A DNA stretch of 34,737 bases from a virus. Shown here one piece after another: positions 9,093-29,806 of the stretch. Position numbers and translations under genes: made by a program. Under the pieces are notes generated by a model that saw only the letters and a list, made by a program, of their open reading frames with translations, was not told where the DNA came from and did no database searches. Position 1 is the first letter of the stretch. Every line of letters starts with the position of its first letter. The DNA lies in IMG/VR virus record IMGVR_UViG_3300025319_000066, positions 1 to 34,737 of that record; one strand, given 5' to 3'.

Positions 9093-9316
9093 TCCCCCTC
9101 CACGAGGTTCCAACAGTCACGCCTGGAGATCGCATGGTCGCACAGGGTATGCCTGGGCAACCAGAACTCCCAAGCCGCTTGGTCCCGGACGTTCAGGGCC
9201 TCCAGCGCCCCCACCCTGGCGAACGCGTGCTCTCCCACGAGCTCGGGCGCACTAAGCTCCGTGAGATGGTTGGCATACTGCGCCTGCCCGCCGGCGTCGT
9301 TGTACTCGTCCCTCAT
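9089..9316 (-). CDS. Hypothetical protein, 75 aa
   Basis: ATG 9316 overlaps the upstream TGA (ATGA) and has the strong SD GAGGAGG six bases away. The SD lies within a 13-base leader sequence shared exactly with two other genes. The protein begins MRDEYNDAGGQAQYANHL, has an Ala/Glu/Leu helical middle and ends FWLPRHTLCDHAISRRDCW. No known domain was recognised. It is coupled at both ends within the small-gene cluster before the large terminase. Confidence 0.7.
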   Translation of the reverse strand: MRDEYNDAGGQAQYANHLTELSAPELVGEHAFARVGALEALNVRDQAAWEFWLPRHTLCDHAISRRDCWNLVEGE

Positions 9317-9927
9317 CCTTGGCCTCCTCGCTCTGCCTCGAGCCAGAGCCGCAAACACGCCGTTTGCCACTTCCTGGCTGCGTCCCAGGCTGCGTCCCAG
9401 GCTGCGGCCTTGGCTGCGGCCCAGGCTGCGGCCCTGGCTGCGGCCCAGGCTGCGTCCCTGGCTGCGGCCTTGGCTGCGTCCCAGGCTGCGTCCCTGACTG
9501 CGTCCCAGGCTGCGTCCCTGACTGCGTCCCAGGCTGCGTCCCAGGCTGCGTCCCAGGCTGCGGCCCTGGCTGCGACCAACTCGGCACTTGTTGCCTTACC
9601 GTACGCAAACGCCTCCGCCACTTTGACCGCGTTTCGGGAATACTCATCCAACAGCAGGCCATAAACTACGCGCCCATCCCCAAGTGGCGTTGAGCAAACA
9701 AAGTCACAGGCCAGAAGACGTGCCATTCGCTCGACTTCCTTCGGCTGTGCCGTTGCTTGTAGCGCCCACAACGCGTCGTCCAACCCGTTTAGGTCTAGCA
9801 CGCGCTCGATGGTGATAGGCGTATCGACGCCATATCCTCTCCCCAATTTCTTGCGAAGGTGGTCATAACGATCCGAACAGGCGTTGTGTTCTCGAAGCAA
9901 CCGTAGGCTTGTTGTTAGTTCAGTCAT
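9313..9927 (-). CDS. Ala/Trp/Asp-repeat protein (204 aa)
   Basis: Residues 1-120 are an ordinary globular or helical domain (RYDHLRKKLGRGYGV, LNGLDDALWALQAT, GRVVYGLLLDEY). Residues 121-186 are a low-complexity run of AAWD, AVRD and AKAAA units, followed by KWQTACLRLWLEAERG. Proteins with such AAWDAAW arrays recur in phages and some bacteria, and their role is unknown. A long amphipathic helix is plausible, with Trp or Arg every four residues. ATG 9927 has GAGGAGG seven bases upstream. The opposite strand also looks open here, but only because of the repeat. Confidence 0.75.
   Translation of the reverse strand: MTELTTSLRLLREHNACSDRYDHLRKKLGRGYGVDTPITIERVLDLNGLDDALWALQATAQPKEVERMARLLACDFVCSTPLGDGRVVYGLLLDEYSRNAVKVAEAFAYGKATSAELVAARAAAWDAAWDAAWDAVRDAAWDAVRDAAWDAAKAAARDAAWAAARAAAWAAAKAAAWDAAWDAARKWQTACLRLWLEAERGGQG
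9370..9567 (-). repeat. 12-base tandem repeat encoding AAWD-type tetrapeptides
   Basis: On the plus strand the array reads as near-perfect 12-base units such as gctgcgtcccag and gctgcggccctg, about sixteen in a row. Each codes on the minus strand for four residues (mostly Ala, with Trp/Arg/Lys/Asp). Near-identical neighbours suggest growth by slippage, so length may vary between related phages. Confidence 0.85.
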
Positions 9928-10825: not shown

Positions 10826-11549
10826 CGTTGTCTCCTTGTTTGTATCCGCGACTGGCGGCGGCCAGCCCCACGTGCAGGTGCGGGTAACGGGGCTTCCTCA
10901 CCTTGACCCCGTCGACGGCCTTCCCCCCATCTCCTTGATCGCTTCCCGCTCCGCCCTCACCAACTGGTTGGTCAGGGCCGACAGCTCGTTGATCGCCCGC
11001 GTCAACTCCTGCACCGCCTGTGTCGTTCGCGCCAACTGCAACTCCAGCGCCAACGTTTCCTGGCTCATGAAACTCTCCCTCCACCGCGGCGGGGTCTGCA
11101 AAGGCGGACGGATCCGCCAACAGCTGTCCGACGGGTGTATCCTTGATCTCCTCCCACCGTTGGGCGCGCAGCCCCTCGGCGTCGACACTCACGTTTACCT
11201 GCACCGCCGGCGCCTGCCGGCCGTACACGATCTGACTGACGAACACGAGATCCTTCACGAGACCAACGGCCTTCGGCGAACCCGCCGCGGCCGCCTCCAG
11301 CACGATACCCCACAGCATATCGAGACGGTCAAGGTCGAGCTGCCGTCGCTCCTCGAGCTCGACCTGGTTCCGCCCCCGCCACCGCCGCACCAGACGGGCC
11401 ACGATTTGGGCGCCGCTCGGCGACCGGATGCCCATGGCCTCGGCCGTGGCCTCCAGCGTCTTGCCGGACACGCGGTACCGAACCGCCTCGCGTTCTCGTT
11501 GGCGGACCGCCTCCTCGGCGGGGGTCAGGGTTCGTTCCAGGGTCTTCAT
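10818..11549 (-). CDS. terS: Terminase small subunit-like protein; 3' part overlaps another gene
   Basis: The first 160 residues fit a small terminase: a helix-turn-helix segment (TLEATAEAMGIRSPSGAQIV), then ELEERRQLDLDRLDML and AAAGSPKAVGLVKDLVFVSQIVYGRQAP, the pattern seen in TerS proteins of several actinophages. It would recognise the packaging site and hand DNA to TerL. After about residue 160 the frame stays open but turns Gly-rich, and third-position G/C falls exactly where the nested 56-aa gene (10898-11068) gains coding character. High third-position G/C returns for the last 27 codons. These may be a separate GTG-started ORF (10901-10818), because that GTG overlaps the nested gene's TGA. 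ATG 11549 has almost no SD but lies 16 bases after a TATAAT box, so translation may be nearly leaderless. Confidence 0.7.
   Translation of the reverse strand: MKTLERTLTPAEEAVRQREREAVRYRVSGKTLEATAEAMGIRSPSGAQIVARLVRRWRGRNQVELEERRQLDLDRLDMLWGIVLEAAAAGSPKAVGLVKDLVFVSQIVYGRQAPAVQVNVSVDAEGLRAQRWEEIKDTPVGQLLADPSAFADPAAVEGEFHEPGNVGAGVAVGANDTGGAGVDAGDQRAVGPDQPVGEGGAGSDQGDGGKAVDGVKVRKPRYPHLHVGLAAASRGYKQGDNDE
10898..11068 (-). CDS. Nested 56-aa coiled-coil protein within the terS frame
   Basis: ATG 11068 has a strong SD (GGAGGGAGAG). The product begins MSQETLALELQLARTTQAV and is a clean heptad-like Leu/Ile helix ending MGGRPSTGSR. Nearly every codon ends in G or C, as in real genes here, whereas the overlapping terS frame does not. 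A small coiled-coil protein could be a packaging or head-tail accessory. The other explanation is a frameshift joining terS to this frame. Confidence 0.65.
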   Translation of the reverse strand: MSQETLALELQLARTTQAVQELTRAINELSALTNQLVRAEREAIKEMGGRPSTGSR

Positions 11550-11564
11550 TCGCGGTTAACACGT

Positions 11565-11570
11565 ATTATA
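11565..11570 (-). promoter_or_regulatory. -10 box TATAAT just before terS
   Basis: The minus strand has a perfect TATAAT 16 bases before the terS ATG, in otherwise GC-rich DNA. No TTGACA-like -35 lies at 16-18 bases. A start site six to eight bases downstream would yield an almost leaderless terS mRNA, which fits its lack of an SD. It is the first promoter-like site after the large palindrome, consistent with a late-gene promoter. Confidence 0.45.
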
Positions 11571-11622
11571 CACCTGTTTCTCCCGGACCGCCGGGTGTTT
11601 CGGCCGCCCCTGTTCAAATTTG

Positions 11623-11736
11623 GATCTCGTTTACAGTTTTACTTCGAGTAGAAACCCTCATAAGGGGGGTTACCTTACATATAAAGTAACCCCCTCTAAG
11701 GAGGTTTCTTCTCCGGGTAAAACTGTAAACGAGATC
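11623..11736. repeat. 114-nt nested palindrome between early and late genes
   Basis: Outer arms are a perfect 19-bp inverted repeat: gatctcgtttacagtttta at 11623-11641 and its complement at 11718-11736. Inside lies a second imperfect hairpin (11651-11673 with 11686-11708): gaaacc stems, a mismatched middle, then a 9-bp gggggttac/gtaaccccc stem around a 12-base AT-rich loop. It starts four bases after the primase-helicase stop and ends about 70 bases before the terS start. Both strands fold. Possible roles are bidirectional terminator, replication origin, recombination or end-processing site, or a small mobile element. No long U-run follows on the minus strand. Confidence 0.85.
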
Positions 11737-11740
11737 GGCT

Positions 11741-14095
11741 CTAGCCTCTCCATTCCGACTCCGCCAGCGCCCTGGCCTGCCACTCCTCCCGGATCCGCAG
11801 GCCCAAGACGGCCCGGACCGTCGTTTCTCCTCGCCCAACGGTCTTGAGAGAGTAGCCCAGAGCCTGGAGCACCTGACTAAGGTCCCGCTTGGTCGGCGGC
11901 CACCTGGTGCTCTGGTTGTCCTTCCACCAGGCGGTCAGAACGTTGTGAAGCTCTCCTAGTGATGCCGACCCCTTCCCGACCTCGGTCGGGTCGTTCCCGG
12001 GTACCTGCAGCGTGGTGTCCTCCAGAAAGCTCTGCCGCCAGTCCTCGAGCTCCACGAAGGAGTCCGTCCACTCCTGGGTCTTCGCCGGCGGTCGCAGCCC
12101 GTTCTCCCAGACGTCACCGGCGCCCCGGATCGCCCACCCCAGGATCCCCTCGGGTCCCGCCGCCAGGATCTCGTCCATCAGGTGCGGGTTGGCCTCCTCC
12201 GCCGAGCACGTGCTCTCGAACTCGACCACCAGTAGGCGGCGGCGCATCGCCAGGTCCCAGTTGGGCACGACGGGGTACGTGTTCGTGTCCAGCACCACCA
12301 GGACGGTCGGCGTGAACTCGTGGATGTCCGTATACTTCAGGCGGGCGGCGATCGGGTTGTGCCCTGTGATCTCCTTCACCCGATCCTGCCGCAGTTCGTC
12401 CCCCGGCCCGGGCTCGCTGATCCAGACGAGGCGCCTTCCCTCCAGAAGGGTCAGGGCGTTCTCCAGGTCCACCTCTTGTCGTGGCCGGGACAGGATCACC
12501 CGCTTGTCCGTCGTGCCCGCCAGCTCCGGTCCGAGCACGCTAACGAGCGTGCCGCAGAACGTCCCCTTCCCGTTCCTCCCCCACCCGTGCAGGATCGGAA
12601 ATACCTGCTCGTTGTTCGTCCCGATCAGGGCGTACCCCGCCAGCCGCTGCATGAACGCCGCCAGCTCGGCATCTCCGCCCATCGTCCACGCCACGAACTC
12701 TTCCCACCGGGCGTTAGCGGCGCCCTCGACGTACCTCGTCGGGCAGCGACGGGTGATGTAGTCCTCGATCCGGTCCTCGCGGAACATGCCCGTCGCCAGT
12801 TCCACCGTACCGTTGGCCACCTTCACCAGCCCGGGCGTCGCGTCGAACCTGATCCCGCTCGCCTCTAGGCTCGTCTCCTCGAAGCCACTGTACGCCTTGA
12901 TCACGTTCCGCATCCACGGATCGTTGCGTAGGTGCTTGGCCTCGTGTACCAACAGCAGACTCCGCCGCCGGGCGCTTCGGGTCTGGGCGATCTCGGCCGG
13001 AATGATCCGCTGTCGAACGGCCCGAAAGGCGTCGAACACCACCGAGGCCGCGGCGTGCCCCGTCCGCCACACCCCCAGGCGGTGGTCGAAGGCGTACCAC
13101 GTTCGGGCCCTGCGATCGAACCACGTTTGCCCCTTCATCACCTGGTGAAGGCGCTTCCCGTCGTCCACGTGCTCGAACCCTATTACCCCGGCGTTCGGGT
13201 CGTCAACGTCGTTGGCACCCTCGTCTGGTGGTTCGGTCTGTCCACCAGCCGAACGACTGCCCCCCAGAATGGCGCCTGCGTACTTCTTCCTTCCGCTCTC
13301 GATGAACCGCCGGAGCCTGGCCTCCTCGATCCCGGTGCCCTGCTGTTCGTTCACCGTCCGCAGAACGGTCATGATCACGTCGTCCGGGTCGCCCCTCGCT
13401 ACCATCCGGGCGGCCTCGTTGCGAAGCCATCCGTGGGCGTCCCCCAACTCGGGGGTCGGTAGGGGCGATAGAACGCGGTTCTCCACCGTCTCCCAGCCTT
13501 CCGGCAGGAGTTCGATCAGCTCGGCTAGGGGCCACGTCCCTTCGGTGTACCGTTCGAAGTCGACCAGGCGGGGCGGATCGTACTTGATGTTCCACGTTCC
13601 CGGCACGCGCAGCACCCGTGCGAGGTCCTTCGCCTCGGGGTCCGCCCCGACCACGCCGACCCAGGCCGCCTGGATCCTCGTCACCCGTTCCCGGATCCCG
13701 TTGGCGTCCAGGGTCACGGTTTCGTCCAGCATCCAGTAGCAGTGAAAGCCGCCACCGCTGTCGACCACCACGTTCGGGACGGCCGACAGACCGTACACGT
13801 GGGCGAGCGCCTTCCCTCGATCTCCTTCGTATATCTTCCAGTCCACGTCGGCGTACAGGCAGTTGATCGCCGTCACCTCGGCGTTGGTCAGTCTGTTCGT
13901 CGCCGTCCGGCGTGCGGCCATGCCGGAGTGTACCGACCAATAGATGTTCTTCTTGCCCTCGGCAACGGCGATCGATCCTCCCTCGGGGATCCAGATGGTC
14001 TTCTTGTGTCCCTCCGCAAGGCGCTGCCACAAGTAGGCGTCGTGCCCGCCCCGCCGAAGGCGATCGAACAAGGATTGGGTCCGTTCGTCACTCAC
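11741..14095 (-). CDS. Primase-helicase (AEP-like primase domain plus SF3/D5-type helicase)
   Basis: A 784-aa replication protein. The N-terminal primase-polymerase-like motifs are CLYADVDWK (Asp83, Asp85), SGGGFHCYW (His118) and DLARVLRVPGTWNIKYDPP. The middle resembles the D5_N region. The C-terminal superfamily 3 helicase has Walker A GWGRNGKGTF (504-513), Walker B RLVWISEP (555-562) and a sensor strand VLVVLDTNTYP (599-608). A winged-helix tail is likely. It would prime and unwind DNA for the phage family A polymerase. GTG 14095 overlaps the glycosyltransferase TGA, with GGAGG four bases upstream. The large palindrome follows the stop. Confidence 0.9.
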   Translation of the reverse strand: MSDERTQSLFDRLRRGGHDAYLWQRLAEGHKKTIWIPEGGSIAVAEGKKNIYWSVHSGMAARRTATNRLTNAEVTAINCLYADVDWKIYEGDRGKALAHVYGLSAVPNVVVDSGGGFHCYWMLDETVTLDANGIRERVTRIQAAWVGVVGADPEAKDLARVLRVPGTWNIKYDPPRLVDFERYTEGTWPLAELIELLPEGWETVENRVLSPLPTPELGDAHGWLRNEAARMVARGDPDDVIMTVLRTVNEQQGTGIEEARLRRFIESGRKKYAGAILGGSRSAGGQTEPPDEGANDVDDPNAGVIGFEHVDDGKRLHQVMKGQTWFDRRARTWYAFDHRLGVWRTGHAAASVVFDAFRAVRQRIIPAEIAQTRSARRRSLLLVHEAKHLRNDPWMRNVIKAYSGFEETSLEASGIRFDATPGLVKVANGTVELATGMFREDRIEDYITRRCPTRYVEGAANARWEEFVAWTMGGDAELAAFMQRLAGYALIGTNNEQVFPILHGWGRNGKGTFCGTLVSVLGPELAGTTDKRVILSRPRQEVDLENALTLLEGRRLVWISEPGPGDELRQDRVKEITGHNPIAARLKYTDIHEFTPTVLVVLDTNTYPVVPNWDLAMRRRLLVVEFESTCSAEEANPHLMDEILAAGPEGILGWAIRGAGDVWENGLRPPAKTQEWTDSFVELEDWRQSFLEDTTLQVPGNDPTEVGKGSASLGELHNVLTAWWKDNQSTRWPPTKRDLSQVLQALGYSLKTVGRGETTVRAVLGLRIREEWQARALAESEWRG

Positions 14096-15108
14096 TCGGC
14101 CTCCGGCACGTCATCGAACGCGTTGGGTTGGGTTACCCACTCGCCGTTCTTCCACTCCTGAAGGACAAAGTCGGCTCCGTTGGGGGGCAAAACGTATCGG
14201 GTAGTTTCGTGTGGCGTTTCTTCCTTCTCTTCGGTCGGGATGACCTCGGCCTCGGTACGGCGGGTGACCCACTTGCCGTCGATGAGGTCCTGGAGCACCA
14301 TCCCGTAGTCGTTGGTCCCCTCGGGAACGACCACGCCGTCCCTTAGCTTGAGCCTGTTGCGTTTCTGAAACCCGCTGTAGTCGACCAGGTGCTGGGGGCG
14401 GCCCCACCGCTCGGTGATCCGGGTAACGTCGGGGTGCTGTTCGACCAGCGACTCGGCCATCCGTAAACGACCCTCGTCCTGGTAGAGCTCGGTCAGGTTA
14501 CCTCCCTTCATCGTCATCGTCTGCATCTTGGCGGCGAGGAAGGTGTTGAACAATACCGTGCACCAACCGTCCTTGAGCGCCCGCAATGATAGGTCGGTAT
14601 CCTCGTTGTACCGGCCCCGCCATCGGTACGGTAGATCGTTTCGGATCAGGATGCAAGAGTAGATTCGGGTGTTTAGGTAGAACGGAGGCATCGCTACCCG
14701 TCGAACCGCGAACATGAAGTATTGGAATCCGGACAACGCCACGTTTTCGTACCGATCGGTGAAGTCCTCGGCCGCTCGAAAGATCGTTCCGGACGATACC
14801 TTGATCTTCATGTTGCGGTTCATGCGACAGAACTTCTGGATGTTGTCGTCCAGAATCCAGTGCCGTTCGGCTCCCGCCGCGATGGAATGCTCCCAGACGA
14901 AGTTGCGAACCGGAATGGAGCCCTGTCCGAGGTTGGAGAAGGGCGTCGTGATGATCTTCGCCGGATCGATGACCGCCGCGTATTCGTCGTATTCCTGGGG
15001 CTCGACCACGATGGAGTAGGGCACCCCGAGTTGTTCTAGTGCCCTTGACGTCATACGGCTCTTGGCCCGCCCCTTTGAGATCACGTAAACAGGGTATTTG
15101 GGGTTCAC
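14092..15108 (-). CDS. TET-associated-type glycosyltransferase (TAGT family)
   Basis: A 338-aa protein starting at GTG 15108 (GTGA junction, SD GAGGAG). It matches the phage TAGT family described with TET/JBP oxygenases: YVISKGRAKSRMTSRAL at the start, VVEPQEYDEYAAVID, PFSNLGQGSIPVRN, the acidic pair in HWILDDNI (Asp87-Asp88), and the long RWRGRYNEDTDLSLRALK segment. By family knowledge such enzymes are predicted to attach sugars to hydroxymethylated bases in phage DNA. The C-terminal tail carries two short copies of a VLQ-x3-[DN]G[KE]WVT motif. The upstream neighbour is a 115-aa protein with a WYP-type end. No TET/JBP dioxygenase is in the window, so the base substrate is unknown. Confidence 0.85.
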   Translation of the reverse strand: MNPKYPVYVISKGRAKSRMTSRALEQLGVPYSIVVEPQEYDEYAAVIDPAKIITTPFSNLGQGSIPVRNFVWEHSIAAGAERHWILDDNIQKFCRMNRNMKIKVSSGTIFRAAEDFTDRYENVALSGFQYFMFAVRRVAMPPFYLNTRIYSCILIRNDLPYRWRGRYNEDTDLSLRALKDGWCTVLFNTFLAAKMQTMTMKGGNLTELYQDEGRLRMAESLVEQHPDVTRITERWGRPQHLVDYSGFQKRNRLKLRDGVVVPEGTNDYGMVLQDLIDGKWVTRRTEAEVIPTEEKEETPHETTRYVLPPNGADFVLQEWKNGEWVTQPNAFDDVPEAE

Positions 15109-15452
15109 GACGTCTCCTCGTCGGCGTACCGCATGTACTTGAACTCCATGGGATCCTTCTGGGGGTACCACATGAACCGGGTTCGACGGCCGATGGGCTG
15201 GTCGACCAGCTTGGCGAAGGAGTCGAGGGCAGCCTGGGAGTCGAAGTGTACGACGATCTGTTTCCAGGATTGGATGTCTTCCTGTTCGTACTCGGGCATG
15301 CCCTTCCATTCCAGGTCGGCCAACCGAAAGTCGTCAGGATCTCCGAACAAGGTACTTTGAACGAGTTCCCTTTCCGGAACACGGAGCAAAGAGTCGTCGG
15401 GCATCTCTGGTCGCGGCGGGGAGGAAAACAGCAAACCCTGTTGTTCGTTCAT
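15105..15452 (-). CDS. Small phage protein with C-terminal FAKLVDQPI...WYP domain (115 aa)
   Basis: ATG 15452 overlaps the previous TGA (ATGA). The N-terminus has MNEQQGLLFSSPPRPE and STLFGDP. The C-terminal half (WKQIVVHFDSQAALDSFAKL, GRRTRFMWYPQKD) resembles a small domain I recognise at the ends of phage DNA methylases and ParB/nuclease-like proteins, where it may aid DNA or partner binding. It directly precedes the TAGT gene and is probably co-expressed with it. That domain link is from memory of family patterns and should be treated as moderate. Confidence 0.65.
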   Translation of the reverse strand: MNEQQGLLFSSPPRPEMPDDSLLRVPERELVQSTLFGDPDDFRLADLEWKGMPEYEQEDIQSWKQIVVHFDSQAALDSFAKLVDQPIGRRTRFMWYPQKDPMEFKYMRYADEETS

Positions 15453-17511: not shown

Positions 17512-17672
17512 CGTTCCGCTCCCTTTCCCCTGGACTTCTTGAGTTCTAGTTTCCGGGCCGTTCCGTCCACGATCACGTATGACTTTGCAGGGCAGGTATG
17601 CCATCGAAGGTACGCCCGCAGAATGTGGTGCCCGCAGGATCCGCAGCGTTGGATAGCCATGCGCGCCCTCAT
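17508..17672 (-). CDS. Small zinc-finger protein (54 aa)
   Basis: ATG 17672 overlaps the FtsH stop (ATGA), with AAGGCGG upstream. The protein has QRCGSCGHHILRAYLRWHTC, a CxxC ... HxxxC-type site, then a basic tail (RKLELKKSRGKGAER). Likely a small zinc-binding, nucleic-acid-binding protein linking FtsH and RNA ligase genes. No specific family recognised. Confidence 0.65.
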   Translation of the reverse strand: MRARMAIQRCGSCGHHILRAYLRWHTCPAKSYVIVDGTARKLELKKSRGKGAER

Positions 17673-19363
17673 TTTTCCGCCTTCTGTATGATCTTCGTTG
17701 CCTCCTCGCCGCTCAATTCCGACTTTTCCACAAGGGCAGTCGCCAGCGCTTCGATCTCGGGCTGATGCGCCGCCAGCAAGTCCTCGGTGGCGCCCATCTG
17801 CTCCTTCAGCCACTTGTCGATGCGTTCGGACTCTCCCTGTGATGGCTTACCGTACTCCTGAGAGATGCCGCCAAACACACCGTGCCAGCTAAGGTAAGCG
17901 ATACGCTCCCTGACGTGCCTGAAGTCCGCAGCTCCACCCACCCATCTCTCGCCCAGCACCACCTTGGTCCCAATGTCCCCGGCTAAGGACACCCGAATGT
18001 CTGCAACGATGTTGGCCATCGGGAAGGTATAGGTGGCCTCTTTGTCTATCGGTAACATAAAGCCAAACCCGATCCCACGCCGGATGATGGAGACGAAGGC
18101 GATTGTCTTACTAGGCGACAGGTGGTAAGATGCAACGCAGTGCGACGCTTCGTGGACTGCCAGTTGCCACCGCTGCTTCTCCGGCATATCGGTGATGGGG
18201 TTGGGAATCCCAGCCACCCCCTCCATCAGAGCCGTGAGAATGTCCATCTCACTGATCTTACTCCGCCCGGCAGCGTTGGCAAGCCGCGGAGCGCCTCGCT
18301 GAGTAGCAGACTGGATCGCAGCGGGCGTGAGTCCTTGCGTGCCAGAAACGAGCCGGTCAATGTCCAGGTCCTCGTGCTTGACCTTGGCGGCGTAGTAGAC
18401 GAAGATTTCCTTGCGCCCAGGGCCGTCAGGGGGATCTACTTTGATCATGTGCTCCATTCGACCAGGACGAATCAACGCTGGATCGAGCCTCTCCGGCATA
18501 TTGGTGGAGCCCATCCATAGCACCACGCCTTCCTTTAGCGGCGGAAGGCGGAGCCGGCGACGCGCAATGTTACGGGCCGTCGTCATCCCCCGCTCTTCAC
18601 CCATGCCGTCGATGGCCACCAGGAGCTGGGTGAGGGCGCCGCCACCCATCATCCCGCCCATCATCCCGCCCATCATCCCCATGCCGCCCATACTACCCCG
18701 TGACCCGAGGGCATCTAGTTCGTCTATGAATGCAATGCACGAACCGTGCTCCGCGGCTAGCGAGCGGCACTTGTTTACGAAGGAGATGGTCTTCATGACA
18801 TCCATCCCCATAAACATTGCCCTGAAACCGCTCCCAGCGATCCCGTGCATTGCCACGCCAGCACTTCCAGCTAAACATTTTGCAAGGTAAGACTTCCCCG
18901 TGCCGGGCTCGCCAATCAACACGAGCCCGCTTGGAGATATGCCCCCCATTTGGTAGAAGTTCGCGTCGCCCTGGAGAATGCTGATCCACTCACCCATCAG
19001 AGCAACTAGGCCTGGCTGACCCTTGTAGTCGTCGAGAGTAAGACCTGAGTCGCTTTTATCCCCCGTCACTTCTCCGTACCCATTACCTAGATCGGTAATG
19101 CGACGACGGGGGAGGATCGTGATGGTCTTGCTACGGGACAGGAACATGAGCATTGCGCCGAAATAGAAGACGATGTACACCACGCCAAAGCCGATCTGAG
19201 CTGCGAGGCGCAAGACTATGAGGGTTGCGTCGGGAAAGAAAACGAACCCGATAATTAGCAAGATCACCACGGCTCTGAGAACGCTCGTAATGGCCTTGTG
19301 GCGCTTGAGGAAGCGGCTTATGTAGATCGGATACGCCATCTTGTTAGCGAGCCAGGTACGCAT
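17669..19363 (-). CDS. ftsH: Phage-encoded FtsH-like membrane AAA+ zinc metalloprotease
   Basis: A 564-aa protein with the complete FtsH layout. Two hydrophobic helices (about 25-43 and 46-75) anchor it, with a short loop instead of the large periplasmic domain of bacterial FtsH. The AAA+ domain has Walker A GEPGTGKS (151-158), an aromatic pore loop (GSGFRAMF, Phe180), Walker B CIAFIDELDALGS (Asp214, Glu215) and the arginine finger region IRPGRME (298-304). The peptidase has HEASH (404-408) and a third ligand likely Asp480 in VGGAADF. A Met/Gly-rich insert (about 224-242) sits after Walker B. It should be a hexameric membrane protease. ATG 19363 overlaps the TAA of a 10-codon leader ORF. It shares a cluster with three other envelope-type genes. 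Confidence 0.92.
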   Translation of the reverse strand: MRTWLANKMAYPIYISRFLKRHKAITSVLRAVVILLIIGFVFFPDATLIVLRLAAQIGFGVVYIVFYFGAMLMFLSRSKTITILPRRRITDLGNGYGEVTGDKSDSGLTLDDYKGQPGLVALMGEWISILQGDANFYQMGGISPSGLVLIGEPGTGKSYLAKCLAGSAGVAMHGIAGSGFRAMFMGMDVMKTISFVNKCRSLAAEHGSCIAFIDELDALGSRGSMGGMGMMGGMMGGMMGGGALTQLLVAIDGMGEERGMTTARNIARRRLRLPPLKEGVVLWMGSTNMPERLDPALIRPGRMEHMIKVDPPDGPGRKEIFVYYAAKVKHEDLDIDRLVSGTQGLTPAAIQSATQRGAPRLANAAGRSKISEMDILTALMEGVAGIPNPITDMPEKQRWQLAVHEASHCVASYHLSPSKTIAFVSIIRRGIGFGFMLPIDKEATYTFPMANIVADIRVSLAGDIGTKVVLGERWVGGAADFRHVRERIAYLSWHGVFGGISQEYGKPSQGESERIDKWLKEQMGATEDLLAAHQPEIEALATALVEKSELSGEEATKIIQKAEK

Positions 19364-22071: not shown

Positions 22072-22221
22072 TCACCACCTCCCGAGCTTTTGCATGATAC
22101 TGACCACCGAACCAAGAACAAAAAAGATCGACCCGGCGGCGTAGAGCAGGTAGGGTAACAGTTCACGAACCATGTTCAGTCTCCGTTTCCGTACGAGTTG
22201 GTCCCAGGATGGGTACGTCAT
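22072..22221 (-). CDS. Small membrane protein (49 aa)
   Basis: Starting at ATG 22221 (ATGA overlap) it reads MTYPSWDQLVRKRRLN and then one hydrophobic helix (LLPYLLYAAGSIFFVLGSVV) ending KLGRW. A second ATG at 22173 has a better SD (GGAG) and gives a 33-aa form. Single-helix phage proteins of this size may be regulators of membrane processes. Function unknown. Confidence 0.5.
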   Translation of the reverse strand: MTYPSWDQLVRKRRLNMVRELLPYLLYAAGSIFFVLGSVVSIMQKLGRW

Positions 22222-22535
22222 CGGTATGCTTGAAGAAAGGCCTCGACACCGTAGTACACCGGGATGCCGTGTTCTTCGGCGAACCTTACTTCGCCGTCCG
22301 AGCCCGAGCTGACTCCTGGCAGGCGGATCATCGCATCGCATTCCGCCAACCACACCAAGTCCATGTCGATCCATACCTGGTAGGGGTGCGGACTGATGAC
22401 GTGCCAGAACCCCGTCAGGTGCGGCACGAACGGTACGTGTCCGGCCGCCAGAACCTGGTCCGCTGCCAGGATCGCCTCGCGGATGTTCAGCATCACGTCC
22501 CCCCGGGTGTACGGTCCAGCGATGTAGACCCTCAC
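22218..22535 (-). CDS. DUF4406/nucleoside 2-deoxyribosyltransferase-like protein (105 aa)
   Basis: Starts MRVYIAGPYTRGDVMLNI and continues with GHVPFVPHLTGFWH, WIDMDLVWLAECDAMIRLPG and SSGSDGEVRFAEEHGIPVYY, the sequence pattern of small nucleoside 2-deoxyribosyltransferase-fold proteins. Such enzymes move deoxyribose between bases or hydrolyse deoxynucleotides. Glu107-type catalytic residues are plausible in DGEVRFAEE, but not proven. GTG 22535 overlaps the upstream TGA (GTGA), with GGAGG seven bases away. It is adjacent to a dATP/dGTP diphosphohydrolase-like gene. Confidence 0.8.
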   Translation of the reverse strand: MRVYIAGPYTRGDVMLNIREAILAADQVLAAGHVPFVPHLTGFWHVISPHPYQVWIDMDLVWLAECDAMIRLPGVSSGSDGEVRFAEEHGIPVYYGVEAFLQAYR

Positions 22536-22966
22536 TTGGTTACCTCCATGTAGCGGGCGGCTTCCCGAGAAAAGACCCGCTGCAGATGGGACACCTTTTT
22601 CTGCATGCGGTCGAACAGGTCGCCGATATCCTGTTTCGGAGGGCGATCGTCGACCCAGTTCCCTTGCTCGATACCATCGATGATGACGGCAATACATGCC
22701 AGGGCACTGGCCAGGTGGGGTACGCCGGTCTTGGGGTCCTCGTCCTCCCCGTTGAAGAACTTTTCGAGGTGGCGGCCCGTCGCGGCCACGTACACCGAGG
22801 CGCGTACGCCGGCGACCCGCCAGTTGAACCCACCGTACTTTAGATCCCCCTCCACCAGGGCCAACGCACCGTAGGCCCGGGCGGAGGCCGGAAACAAAGA
22901 GAGATCCAGACGGCCCGTGGCAGCCGCATCTTTCGGGTTGCTCTCCTTTCGGTCGATCGAAGTCAT
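22532..22966 (-). CDS. dATP/dGTP diphosphohydrolase N-terminal-domain protein (DUF5664-type, 144 aa)
   Basis: Matches the phage family formerly DUF5664: SNPKDAAATGRLDLSLFPAS, then EGDLKYGGFNWRVAGV, AATGRHLEKFFNGEDEDPKTG and HLASALACIAVIIDGIEQG. Family members hydrolyse or sense purine deoxynucleotides, so a pool-shaping role is likely. The NWR and RHL/GED motifs are the parts I recognise. ATG 22966 forms ATGA with the zinc-finger gene. The SD is modest (GGAG at 11 bases). Confidence 0.8.
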   Translation of the reverse strand: MTSIDRKESNPKDAAATGRLDLSLFPASARAYGALALVEGDLKYGGFNWRVAGVRASVYVAATGRHLEKFFNGEDEDPKTGVPHLASALACIAVIIDGIEQGNWVDDRPPKQDIGDLFDRMQKKVSHLQRVFSREAARYMEVTK

Positions 22967-23190
22967 TTGTTTTCTTGCTCCCATTCCTTCTTGACGAGAT
23001 CTGCTCGGCGGCGGCACATCGGCCGACGCTCGTGATCACAGTTTCCGACCACCCAACACTCGCACGTAGAGCACCAACTGACCCCGGGGTAGTCCGGACT
23101 CGGTGCGGAACGATAAGAGTGTTCGTGACCTGACTGGTCACTTTCGGCCTGGACCTCGCCGCCGAAGTCCACGTACTCGGCCCAGGTCAT
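22963..23190 (-). CDS. Hypothetical Cys-rich protein (75 aa)
   Basis: ATG 23190 overlaps the upstream stop (ATGA), with GGACGAGGA just before it. VSWCSTCECWVVGNCDHERRPMC has several Cys/His residues spaced like a zinc site, followed by a basic helix (RRRADLVKKEWEQENK). Function unknown. Lies in the nucleotide-metabolism block. Confidence 0.6.
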   Translation of the reverse strand: MTWAEYVDFGGEVQAESDQSGHEHSYRSAPSPDYPGVSWCSTCECWVVGNCDHERRPMCRRRADLVKKEWEQENK

Positions 23191-26808: not shown

Positions 26809-27059
26809 AGCAAGTCCTCGAGGAGGGCCTTCCGGACTTGTCGGCGTTTCGCCGTAGCCTCGGGATCAGCTGCACACGCCGGACAGTAAGCGAACCACTG
26901 GATGTCGGAGAGCGGAAACGAAGTCGAGAGCATACCGCCTTCGCCCACGTTCTCGCACGCCAGCGCCAAAAGGCGATCCAGCGAGGACGCCGAAGCGATG
27001 CGTCGTTCGCATCCGTCACAATAAAGGCGATGAACGCTTTTGCGAGAGATAAGAATCAT
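26799..27059 (-). CDS. Small zinc-binding protein (86 aa)
   Basis: Two CxxC pairs, YCDGCERR and YCPACAAD, separated by about 40 residues, suggest one zinc site. The protein starts MILISRKSVHRLYCDGCERR at ATG 27059 (ATGA overlap) and ends in a basic helix (AKRRQVRKALLEDLLWD). SD is weak. Upstream neighbour is the methyltransferase, downstream is the polymerase. Likely nucleic-acid or protein binding. Family not recognised. Confidence 0.65.
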   Translation of the reverse strand: MILISRKSVHRLYCDGCERRIASASSLDRLLALACENVGEGGMLSTSFPLSDIQWFAYCPACAADPEATAKRRQVRKALLEDLLWD

Positions 27060-27883
27060 GCGTATTTCCAAAAGGCTGGGCGCCCGTTCCAGTTTTTAGT
27101 CGGGATTTTCTGGTATCCGAGTGTACGCAGATGGGTATTGAATATACGCCCGTATTGCTTACCTGGTATGCCTTCATACAGCTCGAAGTGTCCGAAGGAT
27201 GTTGAACCAAACGAATTGGCGATTAGGGCATATCTTGGTTGGCGCCGAAAAATCGTTTCGGCGTGAAGCCTAGGGTTTTCAAAGTGCTCAAAGTACTCCG
27301 AGGCAAAGACCAAATCAATGGCGTCGGGGACCTCTGCGATATTCTCGACCATGAGAAAATTCGCTGCTTGGGCAACGTGCTTACAGATCTCATACTGTTT
27401 TGTATTTTTGAGATTTGTCCCGTAGACTTGTGCGGTCGGAAACAGGGTCTTTAGCTTGGCTGTAGTAAAACCGATCCCACACCCGACGTCTACAATGCAG
27501 TGGGGTTCTCCGATCATGGATAGGATACTTCGATCGCCTAGGGATTTAGGGGACTGACAGCTTTGCAAATATCCACGAGAGTAAACAACCCAACAGGCAA
27601 AAACATCAGCGATGATGAATACATCGTCGTACAGGGCATAGTTAGGAGTTCCGCTCCGTACTGACGTGTACCAGGCCTGTTCTAGGTTTTGTAATTGACG
27701 CATTTGGGAGCGCAAGATAGCGGATCCTGAATAGTATCGCACGGCGGTTCGAGCTAAACGAGTAAAATCGTCTTTATTGCAGCCGAACAAATTATATACC
27801 GTCTGGGTTAGTTCACTTAGGGCTTGCTCGTCTTCCTTACGAAGGGCGCGAATAGCAGCCCACTCAGTAAATGTTGGTTCCAT
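27056..27883 (-). CDS. Class I SAM-dependent methyltransferase (275 aa), low GC
   Basis: Motif I is CIVDVGCGIGFTTAKL (129-144), followed by a strand with TAQVYGTNL, and later DAIDLVFASEYFEHFENP, typical of Rossmann-fold methyltransferases (type 11/12). The N-terminal 110 residues are helical and unlike DNA methylases, so the substrate could be nucleic acid, protein or a small molecule. The gene is visibly less GC-rich than its neighbours (near 45-50%), which suggests recent acquisition. ATG 27883 has GGAAGG close upstream. It is preceded by a strong hairpin, and its stop overlaps the next gene by four bases. Confidence 0.85.
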   Translation of the reverse strand: MEPTFTEWAAIRALRKEDEQALSELTQTVYNLFGCNKDDFTRLARTAVRYYSGSAILRSQMRQLQNLEQAWYTSVRSGTPNYALYDDVFIIADVFACWVVYSRGYLQSCQSPKSLGDRSILSMIGEPHCIVDVGCGIGFTTAKLKTLFPTAQVYGTNLKNTKQYEICKHVAQAANFLMVENIAEVPDAIDLVFASEYFEHFENPRLHAETIFRRQPRYALIANSFGSTSFGHFELYEGIPGKQYGRIFNTHLRTLGYQKIPTKNWNGRPAFWKYA

Positions 27884-27910
27884 TATAGCCTTCCTCTTTC
27901 TTATTGATTT

Positions 27911-27950
27911 CCCCGGGGTGGGGAAGGAGGAGGAGGACCCCACCCCGGGG
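27911..27950 (-). terminator. 13-bp perfect hairpin before the methyltransferase
   Basis: ccccggggtgggg (27911-27923) pairs with its complement at 27938-27950 around a 14-base loop. On the minus strand it is followed by AAATCAATAAG and then the SD, not by a U-run. It may act as a weak terminator, processing site or mRNA stabiliser. Confidence 0.6.
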
Positions 27951-28008
27951 TAGTTCAACCGACCGGCGGTTTACCGTTGTCCGGGCCGACGGCCGGGGGA
28001 ACCCTAGA

Positions 28009-28650
28009 CTAGACGCCGGCGGCCAGTCGCTTGGCGGCCTCGTCAAGTGCGGCGGCCTCGACCTTGATCGGCGACACCGTTGGGACGAAGAACATCACGT
28101 TGTTCTTGCCGGCGGACTGTGCAGACTTCAGGGTCAGGGCTACGTTCCCCAGACCTCCCCGGGCCACGGCGGTGTTGAAGATGCGTCCCGCACGTTCGGC
28201 CGAGCGGCGAAACCGCAGGGTGGCCAGGGTCCCGTGCGTCACGGAGTACACGACGTACCGGTAGACCTTGGTGCATTCCGGCGCCTTGCGGTGCTCCTTG
28301 TCGCCGGTCCATTCTCGCAGCTGGCAAGTGTCCCCATTCGGACACTCGATGGTCTTGGTGTCGTCTTCCGGGTCCCTGTGCTCGTATGCCTTGGCATACA
28401 GTAGGGGGACGACGGTCACCTCGTTTTCGGGTGGAAATCCAAGGATCAACCACTGCCCGGGCGTTGCCTCCCGCTGCTGAACCTCGGGCGTCAGGCCCTG
28501 GGCCAGTCGCAGGTTGGGGATGAACACGTCGCCAGAGTCGAAGTCCGGAGCGCCGCCCGCGTACCCCTGGATGGCGGTCGTCTGGGCCTCGTGCTCGGCG
28601 GGAACTGCTGCATCTCCGTCCACCATGTCGTCAAACTTGTCCTTACTCAT
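28009..28650 (-). CDS. Hypothetical replication-associated protein (213 aa)
   Basis: ATG 28650 (MSKDKFDDMVDGDAAVPAE) has GAGGAG five bases upstream and ATGA overlap. An acidic N-terminus is followed by FIPNLRLAQGLTPEVQ, TPGQWLILGFPPENEVTVVP, a CPNGDTCQLREW/ECTK pair that might bind zinc, and a Gly/Asn strand region ending KRLAAGV. It resembles a type of phage protein found near polymerase genes and might be a single-strand-binding or accessory factor. No specific family is certain. Confidence 0.6.
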   Translation of the reverse strand: MSKDKFDDMVDGDAAVPAEHEAQTTAIQGYAGGAPDFDSGDVFIPNLRLAQGLTPEVQQREATPGQWLILGFPPENEVTVVPLLYAKAYEHRDPEDDTKTIECPNGDTCQLREWTGDKEHRKAPECTKVYRYVVYSVTHGTLATLRFRRSAERAGRIFNTAVARGGLGNVALTLKSAQSAGKNNVMFFVPTVSPIKVEAAALDEAAKRLAAGV

Positions 28651-29501
28651 TTTGTCTCCTCGACGATTTGTCGAATTTTTGCCAGCTTCTCTCGGTGAGC
28701 GGCCAACCGTTCTTCGTGACCTGTTTTCCACCTGTAGACGTAGGCCGGGTGGTCGATCTGAATTACCTCATTGACACCTCCGACGTGATACTTGATCCAT
28801 CGTGCGGCGTTGTTTCCGCACGCCACAAGCAGTCGGCGATCAGATAGGGTCTGGGGTACGCATTCCGCCGCGTTCGTCCATCCGCACTGTAGGGCCGCGA
28901 TTCCTAGGTCTCGCCCCAGCATGGTGCACAGACGGGACGTCATCGGCAAAAAGCCACCCGGCGTTGTTTCTTTCTTTGAACGTTCGTCCCCGACCACGAC
29001 CACGGGCGCGTTGGGTGGTCCCCCGTAGAAGGGGAGCCCTATCTGCCGGTCGATCGTGTTCTGTTCTTGAAAACGGGCCGCTGTCCATAGGGAGGAAGCA
29101 ACGGCTTCGTGAAACAGGGGATCGTGCAAAAGGTTGATGAGAACGTCGTACCCAAACTCCAGTCCGTACCGGGTGAAGGCTGCTCGAACCTGAAGCTGAT
29201 CGTCCGGGTGCAGAAGAATTGCTCCAACGCCGACCGCCCTTAGGGCTCGTCCGTAAATCCATTCACCCAACCATGGGTCCGCTTGGAGCCGATTGTCCAC
29301 ACTACCGTACACGCTACGACTCGGCCAGCCGTGGTCCCACACGACGCACGGATGTTCCCGGAGGTCAGCCAGGAGGGTAGGGCCGTACTCCCGGTCGTCC
29401 TGGGTCGGTTCCCATCTTCGAAGAAAGGCGCCCCGATCGGCTAGCCGGTCGAGGACCAGGGTCTTGTTTACGTTGTCTGATCCGTCCAGTAGGATGAACA
29501 A
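28647..29501 (-). CDS. Thymidylate-kinase-like domain fused to uracil-DNA-glycosylase-fold domain
   Basis: About 284 aa. N-terminus MFILLDGSDNVNKT resembles thymidylate kinases, but the Walker A is GSDNVNKT, lacking the second Gly. Then RWEPTQDDREYGP and CVVWDHGWPSRSVYG follow, with HGWPSRS at the place of the TMK DR(Y/S) region. The second half (about 165-284) has APVVVVGDERSKKE, GGFLPMTSRLCTMLG, CGWTNAAECVP, LLVACGNNAARWI and IDHPAYVYRWK, the order of motifs in the UDG superfamily. Such fusions may make or police modified pyrimidines. TTG 29501 follows AGGAG, and ATG 29522 is inside a TAGAAT promoter box. Confidence 0.7.
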   Translation of the reverse strand: MFILLDGSDNVNKTLVLDRLADRGAFLRRWEPTQDDREYGPTLLADLREHPCVVWDHGWPSRSVYGSVDNRLQADPWLGEWIYGRALRAVGVGAILLHPDDQLQVRAAFTRYGLEFGYDVLINLLHDPLFHEAVASSLWTAARFQEQNTIDRQIGLPFYGGPPNAPVVVVGDERSKKETTPGGFLPMTSRLCTMLGRDLGIAALQCGWTNAAECVPQTLSDRRLLVACGNNAARWIKYHVGGVNEVIQIDHPAYVYRWKTGHEERLAAHREKLAKIRQIVEETK

Positions 29502-29520
29502 GCTGCCTTCTCCTGAATTC

Positions 29521-29548
29521 ATTCTATCACGTTTCGGATATTTGTAAA
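29521..29548 (-). promoter_or_regulatory. Promoter TTTACA-N16-TAGAAT before the kinase-glycosylase gene
   Basis: -35 TTTACA at 29548-29543, 16-base spacer, -10 TAGAAT at 29526-29521 with a TGA extension (GTGATAGAAT). Best sigma70-like site seen in the window. It follows a strong hairpin, so it probably starts a new transcript. The start site would fall past ATG 29522, favouring TTG 29501. Confidence 0.6.
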
Positions 29549-29560
29549 CAGGGAAAGGGG

Positions 29561-29596
29561 GGACGGGACGACCCAATTTCCTGGGCCGTCCCGCCC
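29561..29596 (-). terminator. 15-bp stem-loop with G-U pairs after the 68-aa gene
   Basis: Arms 29561-29575 and 29582-29596 pair fully in minus-strand RNA, with two G-U wobbles around a 6-base loop. On the plus strand those positions would be C-A mismatches. It begins just three bases after the stop of the 68-aa gene. Likely a terminator or RNA processing structure ahead of the promoter at 29521. Confidence 0.6.
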
Positions 29597-29599
29597 GTC

Positions 29600-29806
29600 T
29601 TATGCCGCTACCCTGGCGGCTAGGCCCTCGGCCGTGGGAACAATGAAGCGCCGTCTTTGCGCAGCCAGTACCGGACAGTCGTGGATGCGGTGCCAACCTT
29701 CGTCATCGTCGATCCCTAACCAAAGTAGTGCTACCTTGGTTAGATTGGAGGGGACGCCCTCGCCCTCTTCATCGATGTCGTCGAGTACCCAGGCAAGCAT
29801 GCTCAT
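29600..29806 (-). CDS. Hypothetical protein (68 aa)
   Basis: ATG 29806 (MSMLAWVLDDIDEEGEGVP) overlaps the previous TGA and has GGGAG seven bases upstream. Acidic with a short Leu-rich centre (VALLWLGIDDDEGWHRIHDC) and an Ala-rich end. No family recognised. A hairpin follows its stop. Confidence 0.65.
   Translation of the reverse strand: MSMLAWVLDDIDEEGEGVPSNLTKVALLWLGIDDDEGWHRIHDCPVLAAQRRRFIVPTAEGLAARVAA

Follow-up and report, generated by a model that had tools for sequence, protein, structure and literature searches.

The palindrome and its genomic surroundings

The window analysed here is an uncultured tailed-phage record taken at its full length of 34,737 bases. The genes that could be recognised are encoded on the − strand, those for replication and metabolism coming from the right, followed by a primase-helicase gene and then by head and packaging genes (terL, portal and head morphogenesis). 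Immediately behind the primase-helicase gene lies a 114-nt palindrome at 11623-11736, the sole inverted repeat of at least 24 nt within the window. On the − strand the palindrome begins 5 nt past the primase-helicase stop (11741-11743), and the next gene starts at 11549. The features of the locus are the following:

11741..14095, − strand: SF3/D5-type primase-helicase, proposed initiator (PHROG primase families, E down to 2e-76; Pfam D5_N and DUF5906)
11792..12046, − strand: predicted C-terminal winged helix of this protein (approximately residues 684-768), proposed origin-binding domain (AlphaFold2 model; match to 1ka8)
11623..11736, no strand assigned: whole palindromic element, proposed replication origin (symmetry, fold, and a place and layout common to other primase-helicase genes)
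11623..11642, + strand: arm 1, 20 nt and perfect, proposed initiator-binding site (TTTAC units at 11630-11634 and 11638-11642; repeat marginal)
11643..11716, no strand assigned: core, itself an imperfect palindrome, proposed melting region (low GC)
11717..11736, − strand: arm 2, inverted copy of arm 1 and a perfect match to it, proposed initiator-binding site

The original prediction had described this element as a 114-nt nested palindrome, with a perfect 19-bp inverted repeat, placed between the primase-helicase stop and the terS promoter. The observation was confirmed and its coordinates were exact. Arm complementarity runs on inwards at 82% over 55 nt, with a 4-nt gap in the middle; the perfect outer repeat, GATCTCGTTTACAGTTTTAC, is in fact 20 bp long (arms 11623-11642 and 11717-11736). 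The location next to the primase-helicase stop also stood. On the other side, a search for sigma-70-type promoters near the element found none, despite a TATAAT at 11565-11570 on the − strand, so the label 'terS promoter' is a guess. The name terS is a weak, putative assignment for the gene after the element, whose one PHROG match is to a family that carries the annotation 'RNase E' (E 8e-7).

Folded as RNA, the element reached approximately −70 kcal/mol on either strand (z approximately −9.7), and none of 200 shuffled sequences was as stable. A branched core in place of the long hairpin was rejected, since a rough fold under constraints gave it a much lower stability. No other 114-nt stretch of the window has a GC content as low as the one beginning at 11616 (39.5%); the core between the arms has 46% GC versus 61.5% for the window, falling to 24% at its centre (11670-11690). 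Each arm contains TTTAC twice, 8 nt apart, a direct repeat of marginal significance (P = 0.054). The element had no match in Rfam, and phage and plasmid DNA similarity searches returned no match covering it. GC skew did not change sign at the element, although the main genes all lie on one strand, which could mask a switch.

A search for further copies of the arm, suggested in the original prediction as a check, gave no second site in the window when as many as 3 mismatches were allowed (0 expected by chance) and, among viral contigs, recovered the exact arm in a single near-identical contig (99.97% over 6,770 bases). This contig carries the element unchanged and adds no information. No other relatives with the same gene order were obtained when the primase and the terS candidate were used as scan queries.

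Several other features of the window were recorded. Matches were found to a TET-associated glycosyltransferase (14092-15309), a nucleoside deoxyribosyltransferase-like protein (22218-23141), a methyltransferase (27056-27958) and, weakly, a uracil-DNA-glycosylase-like protein (28647-29696). Judging from these four matches, the phage may modify bases of its own DNA. The region 17669-19363 encodes a phage protein that combines an AAA+ domain with a partial peptidase M41 domain, resembling the cell protease FtsH, and a run of 12-nt tandem repeats occupies 9373-9589 within the ORF at 9313-9927.

Inverted repeats at the ends of primase-helicase genes

The ends of related primase-helicase genes were surveyed using a profile built from the window primase and known phage homologues. 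It retrieved 532 relatives, of which the best 80 IMG/VR loci were kept; the SF3/D5 primase-helicases surveyed share only about 25-37% identity with that of the window. Palindromes near the primase-helicase stops were present at 5.8 per 10 kb, versus 0.66 per 10 kb elsewhere in the same 80 loci (approximately a 9-fold difference). After exclusion of the window's own relative and of duplicates, an inverted repeat (score of at least 14, span of 70-160 nt) was detected at 17 of 69 primase ends versus 7 of 219 control gene ends with a non-coding gap from the same contigs (Fisher P = 4e-7, a value to be taken only as a guide, related loci not being fully independent). About three-quarters of the surveyed primase ends had no strong inverted repeat by the criteria used.

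The survey yielded 22 distinct elements. Nineteen of them span 93-126 nt, compared with 114 nt in the window, and most begin a few to a few tens of nucleotides past the primase stop. Their arms contain 7-11-nt direct repeats (mean score 9.0 versus 3.3, sd 0.23, for shuffled arms), and core GC is below that of the respective contig in 19 cases (mean −0.18). The arm sequences, exemplified by TGTCCCCTCTGTCCCCTCA, ATGACGCATATGACGGATATGACGCT and GCGTGACCCCGTGACCCTTCGTGACCC, vary between phages; membership of the group is therefore a matter of layout and place, not of sequence homology. When a wider search range was applied to cultured phages, inverted arms with scores of 13-24 were found 95-183 nt past the primase stop in Pan4, Peanam, Marcoliusprime and Erutan, while the same scan gave no element in TG1, IndyLu, Wildwest, JasmineDragon, JuneStar or Shambre1. 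A 295-nt near-perfect inverted repeat was also noted at the end of one contig (L157, 1-295); it is probably an assembly artefact.

The C-terminus of the window primase-helicase was analysed at the structural level. The last 134 residues, modelled by AlphaFold2 with 36 relatives, gave a confident winged helix, with pLDDT mostly above 90 over the domain. Among the best matches to the model in solved structures were RFX domains, a viral primase-polymerase (its C-terminus) and, in fourth place, the origin-binding domain of P4 (1ka8), with a Z of 7.3 over 82 residues, which is in the range reached by common winged helices. The predicted similarity to the P4 domain supports an origin-binding role, without being proof of it. 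A PDB sequence search with the same C-terminus returned nothing meaningful.

Alternative explanations for the element

A palindrome that lies between the last early gene, 5 nt past its stop, and the next gene could act on the transcript, as an intrinsic terminator, an RNase III processing site or a 3′-end-stabilizing hairpin of the early mRNA at the early/late boundary, and the fold of its sense strand is highly stable (−71.6 kcal/mol, z −9.5). We nevertheless regard such a function as quite unlikely. On the sense strand the stem is followed by CAAATTTGAA, where a U-tract is absent; a T-rich tail was seen in just 1 of the 22 surveyed elements, and terminator-like matches in the region were at chance level (4 found, 4.4 expected). 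The bidirectional terminator that had originally been offered as one option found no support. The G-U pairs arising from arm mismatches are split almost evenly between the strands (4 and 3) and thus give no hint of selection acting on the sense RNA, and the 50-70-nt cores of the relatives, together with the direct repeats in their arms, are ill-suited to a terminator. An RNA-processing role is likewise not favoured, though the element may have one as a side role alongside that of an origin.

The element also lies upstream of the packaging operon, which would suit a cos, pac or telomere-resolution site beside the terminase genes; large palindromes are telomere-resolution sites in some linear prophages. 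This explanation appears very improbable. TerL relatives are plentiful (59 loci) but have no primase or terS neighbours, and among them long palindromes upstream of terL showed no excess (1.08 versus 1.19 per 10 kb), which indicates that the element goes with the primase and not with terS. No telomere resolvase was found among the ORFs scanned, which were a part of the ORFs of a record that may itself be a fragment, and two assemblies continue unbroken through the element. Neither the link to terS or packaging nor the option of genome-end processing is supported. In the course of these comparisons, two phage contigs were seen to carry palindromes of other kinds. One has a dispersed family with CAACCTTAACAAATC arms (L082, 3012-3060, 4451-4506 and 5330-5386) and the other has palindromes of short tandem units (L077, 3195-3271, 7097-7181, 13591-13650 and 14676-14772), one of them approximately 0.9 kb upstream of terL. 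Literature searches yielded no papers about either heptanucleotide palindromes or long palindromes close to terminase genes.

A miniature inverted-repeat mobile element that landed by chance between two genes would account for the perfect 20-bp terminal inverted repeats, for a GC content below that of the genome and for the GATC at both ends, readable as part of a target duplication. The original prediction had included this option too, but it found no support in any search for a further copy: the element occurs once in the window, its exact arm in viral contigs is limited to the near-identical contig, an arm-pair search across 84,980 species genomes recovered other elements with the searched core but none with the arms of the window, and plasmids gave no match. 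Moreover, random insertion does not explain why unrelated primase genes are followed, at a matching position, by elements of this kind. We consider this origin of the palindrome extremely improbable.

The matches of the arm-pair scan were palindromes of approximately 90-110 nt made of 7-nt units such as AGTTTAC and AGTTTTC in Fibrella, Spirosoma, Acidobacteria and Kiritimatiellota genomes (L013 1471-1566, L014 5106-5200, L028 7243-7338, L044 4155-4244, L029 1174-1278 and others), several per genome in Fibrella forsythiae. Their likeness to the window element was dismissed as coincidence, since the TTTACAGTTTT that they have in common with it was a requirement of the search pattern.

A proposed replication origin and its known counterparts

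Taken as a whole, our analysis indicates that the element is probably a replication origin of the Sfi21/PICI kind, a known origin type, used by the adjoining primase-helicase. This interpretation, one of the options in the original prediction, is favoured because of the survey of primase-helicase gene ends, the annotated origin of phage Sfi21 and the predicted fold of the initiator C-terminus. The marginal repeats of the window element (P = 0.054), its palindromic core and the lack of a GC-skew switch count against it. So do the majority of surveyed primase ends, which have no strong inverted repeat, the variation in arm sequence, a Z that common winged helices also reach and the dependence of the helicase Cch2 on direct repeats.

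In the mechanism that we propose, the winged-helix C-terminus of the primase-helicase would bind both inverted arms and thereby place two helicase assemblies face to face across the AT-richer core. The core would then melt, allowing the helicases to load and unwind the DNA, and the primase part would supply primers to the family-A DNA polymerase encoded by the phage. A single site might even do two jobs, serving both as an origin whose whole palindrome, arms and core, extrudes as a cruciform for initiator loading, and as the border that separates early transcription from the packaging operon. We think this dual role unlikely; if true, it would couple the start of replication to late expression.

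In the survey, many phages of distant relationship proved to have this layout behind their SF3/D5 primase-helicase genes, one annotated phage origin being among the cases. This offers a simple rule for finding the origin in the genome of an uncultured phage, namely to search just past the primase-helicase stop. Two questions also become accessible to testing, one being whether phages and their satellites have an initiation system in common, the other whether the winged helix and the arms co-vary in sequence.

A close comparison is with Streptococcus thermophilus phage Sfi21 (record AF115103), in which the origin is annotated at 34487-34784, at the 3′ end of the primase gene. In pairwise comparison its helicase is a distant relative of that of the window (21% identity, E 5e-9). 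The Sfi21 origin contains CTTTAGTTACTTAGTTAC...GTAACTAAGTAACTAAAG, 18-nt perfect inverted arms with a span of 107 nt, versus 20 nt and 114 nt in the window. Both lie directly 3′ of an SF3-type primase/helicase gene, with an 8-nt repeat spacing and a lower GC between the arms. They differ in that Sfi21 has clear 8-nt repeats and a core of 11% GC, whereas the repeats of the window are degenerate and its core, at 46% GC and palindromic, is AT-richer than the window but falls short of that of Sfi21. The arms begin 59 nt past the stop in Sfi21 and 5 nt past it in the window.

The P4 alpha protein is, like that of the window, a primase-helicase. Its C-terminal winged helix binds the origin, and it is with this domain that the predicted window C-terminus aligns (1ka8). 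A difference lies in the layout of the P4 ori, which uses two separate sites, with type I iterons.

In PICI satellites the origin lies immediately 3′ of the initiator gene, with two iteron sets around an AT-rich region, and the function of this pri-ori unit has been tested (PMC6092414); plasmid maintenance was the assay used for the EcCICFT073 PICI. The window resembles PICIs and SaPIs in the position of the element immediately 3′ of a pri-rep initiator, and some PICIs have terS downstream, as the window may. PICIs, however, are satellites with clear iteron sets, whereas the window, a phage record, encodes its own terminase, portal and polymerase. According to PMC7581432, the C-terminal domain of SaPI Rep recognises the origin directly downstream of the rep gene. 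The D5_N-type helicase Cch2 of SCCmec likewise uses its C-terminal domain to bind direct repeats downstream of its own gene, these repeats being needed for binding and inverted repeats not (PMC7581432). Cch2 is thus similar to the window protein in helicase type and in having repeats directly downstream of its own gene; it departs from our proposal in binding through direct and not inverted repeats, and replication in vivo was not shown for it. The palindromic core sets the window apart from most of the surveyed relatives. Its place 3′ of the initiator gene, its inverted sets approximately 100 nt apart and the predicted C-terminal DNA-binding domain of the initiator are all as in the Sfi21/PICI layout.
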